32,474 nt of DNA from Candidatus Zixiibacteriota bacterium (GTDB lineage Bacteria; Zixibacteria; MSB-5A5; GN15; JAAZOE01): contig DAOUTW010000053.1 of the NCBI GenBank assembly GCA_030668485.1, positions 1-32,474 on the forward strand, given 5' to 3'. Within the stretch, counting starts at the first letter, position 1. Each line of letters begins with the position of its first letter. The position numbers were made by a program, and so were the translations under genes. Below the pieces are notes generated by a model. That model saw only the letters and a program-made list of their open reading frames with translations, ran no database searches and was not told the origin of the DNA. This document shows positions 11,309 through 29,505 of this stretch, piece by piece.

Positions 11309-11668
11309 ATGAAATCGATTATTACGGCCTTGTGCTTTACATGCCTTTTCATGGCCTTATTCTTGTCTTGCGGCCAGCGCGAAGAAGTCTCAAAAAGCGC
11401 AATTCTATCCGGGAGGGTGACCGACACCGACACCACCATTTATCTTGCCGGCGTCAAAGTATTTGAAAAATCCCACGCCAAACTGAGCACCGTCACCGAC
11501 TCGGCCGGTTATTTCCGGCTTGATGGAGTGATGTTTGAGGAACACAATATTTATTTTGAACGGGATGACTACGAAACAGACACCCTCTGGTTCGAATATA
11601 CCGGTCATTTTGACCGTCCGGTCGTGACACATCATATCACGATGACACCGATCGCTGAAGAGCAGTAA
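11309..11668 (+). CDS. Small lipoprotein with a carboxypeptidase-regulatory-like domain
   Basis: The 119-residue product begins with a lipoprotein signal ending in L-F-L-S-C (Cys at about residue 21). The mature part is one beta-sandwich of the CarboxypepD_reg type: S-G-R-V-T-D-T-D near the start, then the hallmark T-V-T-D-S-A-G-Y-F-R-L-D-G-V. AAGGAG lies six bases before the ATG. It is probably a small periplasmic lipoprotein; its partner is unknown. It stands alone, reading away from obg. Confidence 0.7.
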   Translation: MKSIITALCFTCLFMALFLSCGQREEVSKSAILSGRVTDTDTTIYLAGVKVFEKSHAKLSTVTDSAGYFRLDGVMFEEHNIYFERDDYETDTLWFEYTGHFDRPVVTHHITMTPIAEEQ

Positions 11669-11731: not shown

Positions 11732-11760
11732 TTGACAAACGGAACATTTGCCTATAAACA
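11732..11760 (+). promoter_or_regulatory. Promoter of the ArsR operon
   Basis: The perfect -35 TTGACA (11732-11737) is followed by TATAAA (11753-11758, 15-bp gap) or TAAACA (11755-11760, 17-bp gap). The -10 region lies inside an 18-bp motif (11747-11764) that recurs before the next gene, so repressor binding here would block transcription. Confidence 0.6.
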
Positions 11761-11764
11761 TATG
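11747..11764 (+). promoter_or_regulatory. Candidate ArsR operator, copy 1
   Basis: TTTGCCTATAAACATATG lies over the arsR -10 region. Copy 2 (12177-12194) matches at 16 of 18 positions. AT-rich ATA/TAT sites near the -10 are usual operators for ArsR/SmtB repressors; the assignment is inference. Confidence 0.45.
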
Positions 11765-11771
11765 GTTATAT

Positions 11772-12140
11772 ATGGATATGAAAGGTAAAAAGAGATCGGG
11801 ATCGCCCGCGATGGTCGCCTGCTCGATGGACGAAAAGGCATACAGCAAATATTTCAAGGCCTTCGGCGACCCCTCACGCCTGCGGATTCTCTGGCTGTTA
11901 TCCAGCGGAGAAATGACCGTCAACGAAATTGTCGCGGCTATGGACCTGTCCCAGCCGACCATAAGCCGGCACTTGGCGGTTTTGCGGGAAGCTGAAATTG
12001 TAGCCGACCGCCGCGACGGTCAGCGCGTTTTTTACAGCCTTAGAAAGGAAGTCGTGGACGAATGTTGTTCTGGTTTCTGCGACTGCCTGACGATTTCCTT
12101 CTCAAAAGGTAAAAAAGGCGGAAAAAATAAGAAAAAATGA
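11772..12140 (+). CDS. ArsR/SmtB-family metalloregulator with C-terminal Cys cluster
   Basis: This winged-helix repressor has the ArsR core F-G-D-P-S-R-L-R-I-L and the recognition helix L-S-Q-P-T-I-S-R-H-L-A-V-L-R. From the ATG at 11772 it is 122 residues; the frame opens at a TTG at 11748, and ATGs at 11778 and 11811 are alternatives. The promoter places the transcript start near 11767, so the leader would be very short. The canonical alpha-3 CxC site of ArsR is absent. Instead four cysteines lie near the C-terminus (C98, C99, C103, C105 in ECCSGFCDC), recalling ArsR variants that bind arsenite or another soft metal through C-terminal cysteines. A Lys-rich tail follows. It heads an operon-like unit with two tiny Cys-rich ORFs. 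Confidence 0.88.
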   Translation: MDMKGKKRSGSPAMVACSMDEKAYSKYFKAFGDPSRLRILWLLSSGEMTVNEIVAAMDLSQPTISRHLAVLREAEIVADRRDGQRVFYSLRKEVVDECCSGFCDCLTISFSKGKKGGKNKKK

Positions 12141-12176
12141 AAAAAATGCTTTTTTTTGGAAACATTTATAGACATA

Positions 12177-12194
12177 TTTGCATATATACATATG
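12177..12194 (+). promoter_or_regulatory. Candidate ArsR operator, copy 2
   Basis: TTTGCATATATACATATG lies 32 bp before the start of the 54-residue Cys-rich ORF and is a 16/18 match to the site over the arsR promoter. It implies that the small gene can be controlled separately. Confidence 0.45.
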
Positions 12195-12225
12195 TAGATA
12201 ACAACCTATAGATGGAGGAAAGACC

Positions 12226-12390
12226 ATGGATAAGAAACAGACACGGATCGACATCACCGAAACCGAGAACGGGTTTCAGGTTGAGGTCACAGGGAAAAGT
12301 CTTGCGGATTTATGTTCCTGCTGCTGCGTTGCCGGTTTTGCCGGTAAGGACATCTCCGCCTGCTGCCCCCCGGCTGAGGAGAAGAAGTAA
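12226..12390 (+). CDS. Tiny Cys-rich protein, possible metal-binding partner of ArsR
   Basis: This 54-residue ORF starts at an ATG with GGAGGAAAG just upstream. The first 28 residues look like a small beta hairpin (I-D-I-T-E-T-E-N-G-F-Q-V-E-V-T-G). Six cysteines follow: C30, C32, C33, C34 in CSCCC, and C46, C47, then P-P and an E-E-K-K tail. There is no signal peptide, so it should be cytoplasmic. The CSCCC and CC clusters, the position 85 bp after a Cys-rich ArsR regulator, and the shared upstream motif suggest a metallothionein-like or metal-chaperone role. I do not recognise the family; function is inferred from composition and context only. Confidence 0.7.
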   Translation: MDKKQTRIDITETENGFQVEVTGKSLADLCSCCCVAGFAGKDISACCPPAEEKK

Positions 12391-12454
12391 ACCGGATTAT
12401 CTGCCATAACCGGCGGGATTACTTTTGAATTGGACTTTTTACAAGGAGGCTGAA

Positions 12455-12505
12455 ATGAGGCGCTATTCTGTTCCCCGTACGGCTCATTGCTGCTCCGGCG
12501 CATAA
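12455..12505 (+). CDS. Possible 16-residue micropeptide MRRYSVPRTAHCCSGA
   Basis: A near-perfect ribosome site (AAGGAGG) lies six bases before this ATG, one of the strongest in the window, yet the frame stops after 16 codons. The peptide ends H-C-C-S-G-A, echoing C-C-S-G in the ArsR tail encoded upstream. It lies 64 bp after the 54-residue Cys-rich ORF and before the operon terminator. It may be a real metal-binding micropeptide or a leader peptide. No gene follows on this strand, so classical attenuation of a downstream gene is unlikely. Confidence rests on the ribosome site alone. Confidence 0.4.
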   Translation: MRRYSVPRTAHCCSGA

Positions 12506-12578
12506 GGCCGGTCCCGGGCAAGACCCTAAACTGCCCCGCACCGCCTGCCGGAGACAAATCGATTCAGCAGGCAAATCA

Positions 12579-12606
12579 AACCCGGGACTGGCCCCGGGTT
12601 ATTTTT
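12579..12606 (+). terminator. Terminator of the ArsR/Cys-rich operon
   Basis: AACCCGGG (12579-12586) pairs with CCCGGGTT (12593-12600) around a six-base loop, followed by ATTTTT. It closes the operon just before the convergent HTH gene. Confidence 0.8.
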
Positions 12607-29205: not shown

Positions 29206-29505
29206 TTACTGTGCCTGCCCGCACCAGAGCGTGCACCCATAGGGGTTCCCGCCGCCGGGCGGCAGCCCCATACAGGAACAACCAATATTATCTTCGTACA
29301 GGCAGCCCGAAGCGGAATATACTCCCAGCCCATTATTCGGTGCCGGACAGCACTGGCCCATAACCACTTCAACATCCCAGGGCGCACACTTGGGTAACAG
29401 CGGCGGATCCGCAAGACCGGCGGTAGCCGACACATTAAAACCAACAGTGATCCCGATCACGAAAACAAACGTCAATATCAGGCTTACGATATGTTTGATT
29501 CCCAT
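29206..29505 (-). CDS. Small secreted eight-cysteine protein, type 2
   Basis: The 99-residue ORF has GGAAGGAG upstream of its ATG. A signal peptide (about residues 1-32; core I-V-S-L-I-L-T-F-V-F-V-I-G-I) precedes a mature domain of about 67 residues with eight cysteines (K-C-A, Q-C-C-P, G-C-L-Y, G-C-S-C, Y-G-C, L-W-C-G) and many Gly and Pro. The leader end V-G-F-N-V-S-A-x-A-x-x-A-D-P-P resembles that of the peptide encoded at 14180-14380. It is flanked by its own terminator. Family and function are unknown. Confidence 0.7.
   Translation of the reverse strand: MGIKHIVSLILTFVFVIGITVGFNVSATAGLADPPLLPKCAPWDVEVVMGQCCPAPNNGLGVYSASGCLYEDNIGCSCMGLPPGGGNPYGCTLWCGQAQ

Follow-up and report, generated by a model that had tools for sequence, protein, structure and literature searches.

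In the 32,474-nt stretch of Candidatus Zixiibacteriota DNA analysed here (the window), a short arsR unit ends in a 16-residue micropeptide ORF joined to an H-type RNA pseudoknot, a pair suggestive of an RNA-peptide device that seems not to have been described. We give roughly even chances to the claim that this device is common to bacteria and phages, with the two-thiol peptide being read against the knot 8 nt downstream and placed here under arsenite-type control, the knot belonging to a class of post-stop RNAs found throughout phages but not listed in Rfam, and the micropeptide to a family that is likewise phage-wide and too short for annotation. The unit comprises the following features.

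11732..11780 (+): arsR promoter/operator region, with TTGACA at 11732-11737, TATAAA at 11753-11758 and the operator-like CATATGGTTATATATGGATATG at 11759-11780
11772..12140 (+): arsR, 122 aa from ATG 11772, with C-terminal CCSGFCDC (Pfam HTH_5, NCBIfam HTH_metalloreg)
12150..12200 (+): T-run then GGAAACATTTATAGACATATTTGCATATATACATATG, a probable second ArsR-controlled promoter, aligned in most relatives
12226..12390 (+): P54, a 54-aa protein with 6 Cys in an optional slot, with about 20 relatives in the phylum
12443..12449 (+): Shine-Dalgarno sequence AAGGAGG of the micropeptide, read from the sequence; an SD-like sequence also occurs in relatives
12455..12505 (+): micropeptide ORF MRRYSVPRTAHCCSGA, stop TAA, found at 47 loci in 45 genomes and also in phages
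12511..12536 (+): H-type pseudoknot GUCCCGGGCAAGACCCUAAACUGCCC, with S1 formed by 12511-12513/12522-12524 and S2 by 12516-12520/12532-12536, conserved in the phylum and covarying in phages
12579..12606 (+): intrinsic terminator, a hairpin at 12579-12600 plus a T tail

The original prediction had described a regulator with a C-terminal Cys cluster, a 54-residue ORF with CSCCC and CC clusters, a 16-residue ORF with a near-perfect ribosome site just 5' of it and a good terminator, and all of these were present where it had placed them. As it had also claimed, the unit contains no transporter, reductase or methyltransferase, and it has neither the efflux pump nor the arsenate reductase or ArsM that would mark it as a resistance operon of the ars type. 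Its reading of the unit as metal-sensing and metal-buffering, with Cys-rich micro-proteins as the only other products, held in part: the sensing side was supported by the Cys site of the regulator and by the operator-like repeats that most loci have at both promoters, and purifying selection acts on the small Cys-rich protein encoded by the middle gene. It was not supported as the whole story, since the Cys-rich protein is missing in 12/37 loci. The most conserved part, the pseudoknot, had been overlooked. A comparison of flanks between loci found no conserved neighbour genes around the relatives' units; in a single relative, L008, an arsM-like ORF lies directly 3' of the unit by inspection. 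Just 5' of the window's arsR, at 11309-11668 (+), is a lipoprotein-like ORF that weakly matches CarboxypepD_reg.

The window ArsR is a winged-helix protein of the ArsR/SmtB family (HTH_5, 1e-17; NF033788, HTH_metalloreg, 5.8e-29), with alternative starts at TTG 11748 and at the ATGs 11811 and 11826. Near its C-terminus it carries the three Cys ligands (CCxxxxxC) of the AfArsR-type (Type 2) As(III) sensors, and CCx5C was found at this place in 30/39 relatives. AfArsR of Acidithiobacillus ferrooxidans has the Type 2 As(III) site CCHGTRDC (PMC11868830, PMC11212059). The two proteins share the ArsR/SmtB fold and an adjacent Cys pair with a third Cys six residues on, whereas the window motif has an extra Cys and the regulated unit holds none of the classical genes named above. 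From these ligands we infer that the window ArsR responds to arsenite. Another ArsR class, ending in CFPCC, occurs in 4-6 arsR loci, and the inducer there may therefore differ. TATATA-type 6-mers and TTGACA were strongly enriched 5' of arsR in the 39 relatives, with an operator role predicted from sequence. Between arsR and the next gene, most loci contain a T-run and a similar AT-rich repeat (30/39 by a loose pattern), and the sole match to this second repeat in the window's own genome is 12156-12193. Two loci depart from the usual layout: L074 has only an ArsR fragment upstream of the micropeptide, and in L075:3461-4009 the ArsR frame runs without a stop into the micropeptide, a possible ArsR-micropeptide fusion.

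The original prediction had staked itself on the pairing of the 54-residue ORF with arsR and on purifying selection, and both were borne out. About 21 P54 relatives, at E values up to about 1e-3, were found among 132 genomes of the phylum; an ArsR 58-74% identical lies directly upstream in 20/21 loci (the exception is L012), and the pN/pS of 0.49 indicates purifying selection. In the AlphaFold2 model residues 6-23 form a beta-hairpin and the Cys tail is disordered, and comparison with the PDB gave no useful relative. P54 and 19 relatives matched nothing in Pfam below E 0.04, and P54 itself matched no NCBIfam model and no metallothionein family model. As with bacterial metallothioneins and SmtA-type operons, P54 is a small Cys-rich protein beside an ArsR/SmtB regulator, but it differs from them in its lack of a Pfam or NCBIfam match, in having only 6 Cys and in being optional. 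Among 37 loci, the slot between arsR and the micropeptide held a small ORF of 3-9 Cys in 25 (P54 or unrelated) and a gap without such an ORF in 7, and the micropeptide followed arsR directly in 5. The slot is thus an optional place for small Cys-rich proteins, of which P54 is one, and where P54 is missing another small Cys-containing ORF often fills it. Two P54 relatives, L093 (G086) and L099 (G123), stand without a detected micropeptide and pseudoknot, and L093 also without ArsR at its locus. Elsewhere in the window, at 29206-29505 (-), a 99-aa ORF with a signal-like N-terminus contains many cysteines (CCPAP..CSC..CTLWC).

Downstream of P54 in its relatives we found a conserved tiny ORF and then, at a fixed distance, the motif GTCCCGGGYANGACNNNAAACTGCCC. 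At ≤2 mismatches this motif was present in 36 genomes, compared with no match for the reversed control pattern, and the micropeptide accompanied every match except L035, a chance match in G015 with no micropeptide. A combined pattern added eight loci, seven with ArsR just upstream and the eighth cut by a contig end, and raised the count to 45/132 genomes of the phylum (47 loci) with a micro-ORF M..RF.[I/V]PR.AHC..G(C) behind an ArsR gene. The micropeptide is under peptide-level selection with synonymous codon changes: its pN/pS was 0.345 (codons 2-16, 39 loci), whereas the other frames gave 1.05 and 1.10; P7, R8, A10, C12 and G15 are invariant although their codons vary. Each peptide carries two thiols, Cys12 together with either Cys13 (13 loci) or Cys16 (26 loci) and never both (39/39). 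The constant product of the units is this two-thiol ORF joined to the pseudoknot. Selenocysteine was ruled out (the Cys codons are free of UGA), and a coding role of the pseudoknot motif in another frame was rejected on inspection, with stops in each frame across 39 loci. An antiterminator in which UCCCGGG would pair with CCCGGG terminators was likewise rejected, as the two showed no covariation on inspection (L096, L101).

We defined a phage post-stop pseudoknot class by an S1 of 3 bp, an S2 of 4-5 bp, a loop NNNAAAC and CC after S1. The window knot has this fold but a different arrangement, its stop lying 5 nt before the knot and so outside the stop position of the class. The exact host form was found in 14 viral-contig stretches without ArsR, and patterns with one stem pair left free returned at least 120 viral stretches each. 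Among the matches listed, the two free positions were complementary in nearly every case: free pair 7-25 was AT (97), GC (44), GT (1) or CG (1), and free pair 8-24 was GC (75), AT (26), TA (24), CG (9) or GT (2). With S1 left free (positions 1-3 and 12-14), 196 of 199 phage instances still formed all 3 bp of the helix, and did so with many different sequences. Both S1 and S2 are supported by covariation in the phage instances. A structural scan of viral pieces revealed 558 pseudoknots compared with none in reversed sequences, a number that gives no prevalence because the pieces were fetched for holding such motifs.

In viral loci L102-L115 and L143-L584, the 26-nt H-type pseudoknots lie 6-20 nt after stops, often several per phage and on one strand. 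The genes 5' of sampled phage knots encode thymidylate synthase, DNA polymerase, Hsp20 and unknowns, and knots also lie behind tRNAs and hairpins. Annotated phages with a knot just 3' of genes include Roseobacter phage SIO1 (behind ribonucleotide reductase), the cyanophages S-RIM4 and S-EIVl, mycobacteriophage Labelle, Moorella phage MTATph1 and a microvirus; no knot is present in lambda or T7. In host genomes of the phylum, the pattern searches met the pseudoknot essentially only in arsR units. No Rfam covariance model matched the knot, a 26-nt pseudoknot being a weak target for such models, and no description was found in a literature search that did not extend to the 2017 catalogue of 224 RNA motifs, where the knot could be described. 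One phage contig carries three pseudoknot-like elements within about 230 nt (L114:750-990, minus strand).

The micropeptide also recurs in phages. A degenerate peptide pattern matched 29 viral stretches compared with about 3-4 expected by our own estimate, many of them free-standing ORFs of 16-23 codons ending AHCxxGC*, and a second pattern matched 53 viral stretches, from which 38 distinct matches were read. Many of these micropeptides lie upstream of a large ORF, a putative terminase. A tblastn search of INPHARED and PLSDB with a 20-aa peptide gave no match and was underpowered. In the T4-like phage contig L626 (8060-8170), which lacks ArsR and matches phage primase and clamp loader, a micropeptide and a pseudoknot stand at exactly 8 nt, and both knot stems are changed in sequence but paired (S1 GCC/GGC). 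Phage micropeptides are otherwise mostly without a pseudoknot and most phage pseudoknots without a micropeptide, so the two can work apart. Because both recur in phages without ArsR, metal buffering is unlikely as their basic function, and we argue from the phage copies that what the cassette basically does is not arsenic-specific. Free-standing copies RF[MT][IVL]PR.AHC..GC* of 16-23 codons in L602-L624 and L666-L698 appear to be unannotated and often have a convergent gene close behind them. The TGACTA after phage micropeptides was considered as a readthrough signal and rejected on inspection, CTA being the convergent gene's own stop where such a gene is present.

The position of the ORF end relative to the knot differed sharply between arsR units and phages. 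The distance from codon 16 to the start of the pseudoknot was 8 nt in 38/39 arsR loci, even though the spacer itself varies in sequence. The stop lay 0-5 nt before the knot in 6 loci, overlapped it or lay inside it in 32 and lay beyond it in 1, and in 0/39 was it 6 nt or more before the knot. In phage instances with an ORF, by contrast, the stop was at least 6 nt upstream of the knot in 435/444 (6-7 nt in 175/444) and ≤5 nt upstream in only 9 (Fisher P 3.5e-49, only indicative, as the sequences are related). A ribosome finishing the conserved peptide in an arsR unit must therefore meet the knot, and this encounter forced by ORF geometry is the main evidence for coupling, although part of the fixed 8-nt spacing could be due to common descent. 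Readthrough as the phage function was rejected; the next in-frame stop is unconserved, at a median of 11 codons.

Our best reading, which we place slightly below even chances, is that the unit would encode arsenite-inducible thiol micro-proteins together with a translation-coupled RNA device. With no inducer, ArsR would keep the promoters repressed until it was released by arsenite or an ion of similar thiophilic character, which the Cys-rich protein would buffer. The micropeptide and pseudoknot would act as one translation-coupled device, in which a ribosome just done with M..RF.IPR.AHC..G would meet the knot at a recoding-type spacing (recoding pseudoknots use about 5-9 nt) and either pause, as on an arrest peptide, or unfold the knot. 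Translation of the two-thiol peptide may thereby determine how stable the mRNA end is or what becomes of it. Conservation and spacing are what speak for an arrest peptide, and the knot may act by pausing, stabilising or insulating. Against a coupled device, there is no downstream gene that a stalled ribosome would obviously control.

A plain metal-sensing and buffering operon, with metallothionein-like micro-proteins under ArsR control, the micropeptide as a further thiol ligand and an RNA structure of no consequence, would agree with the As(III)-type site, with the selection on P54 and recurrence of Cys-rich ORFs in the middle slot, and with the two invariant thiols; we nevertheless consider it improbable, since the middle ORF is absent in 12/37 loci, phages have the micropeptide and the pseudoknot but no ArsR with them, and the rigid spacing to a covarying pseudoknot is left unexplained. 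We judge it just as improbable that the knot is a stabiliser or insulator of the mRNA 3' end, as it probably is in phages, with the micropeptide an independent small effector and the overlap merely saving space. The phage knots, which follow the stops of unrelated genes as well as tRNAs and hairpins, and whose sharp 6-nt lower limit looks like avoidance of a terminating ribosome, suit such a role; in the arsR units, however, the ORF end overlaps the knot in 33/39 loci, so that a terminating ribosome would unfold it, and 23/39 have a terminator-like hairpin further down as well (compared with 24/390 control stretches). That the unit is a domesticated phage cassette directed against phages, either a decoy for a knot-binding phage factor or a captured phage regulatory peptide under ArsR control, is very unlikely, as the cassette always stands with ArsR, and of two classes, among unconserved neighbour genes, even though both parts occur in phages (once together with identical spacing) and host-genome knots are nearly confined to arsR units.

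The coupled device we favour resembles several known RNA systems in part. In the odc1 motif of alphaproteobacteria, an uORF with a pseudoknot lies upstream of the gene that it controls (PMC8632094). The likeness lies in the combination of a very short peptide ORF with a pseudoknot, whereas the ORF and knot described here end the operon and the sequences are unrelated. The L17 downstream element and other 3'-UTR RNA motifs are structured RNAs just 3' of a coding region (PMC2864571). The knot shares this position but differs from them in structure and matches no Rfam family. The pair also shares with viral recoding (frameshift or readthrough) pseudoknots, which lie 6-8 nt from the A-site codon, the H-type fold, the A-rich third loop and that same distance, but there is no conserved extension after the phage stops and no slippery site was noticed.

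If correct, these results would add a class of RNA elements, widespread in phages yet absent from Rfam, whose covariation is seen at the level of base pairs; a family of micropeptides much too short for gene finders to call; and an operon that has a metalloregulator but none of the classical resistance genes. With so rigid a spacing between peptide and pseudoknot, a translation-coupled mechanism can be tested directly, and the knot is carried by isolated phages (Roseobacter phage SIO1, Synechococcus phage S-EIVl and Moorella phage MTATph1).
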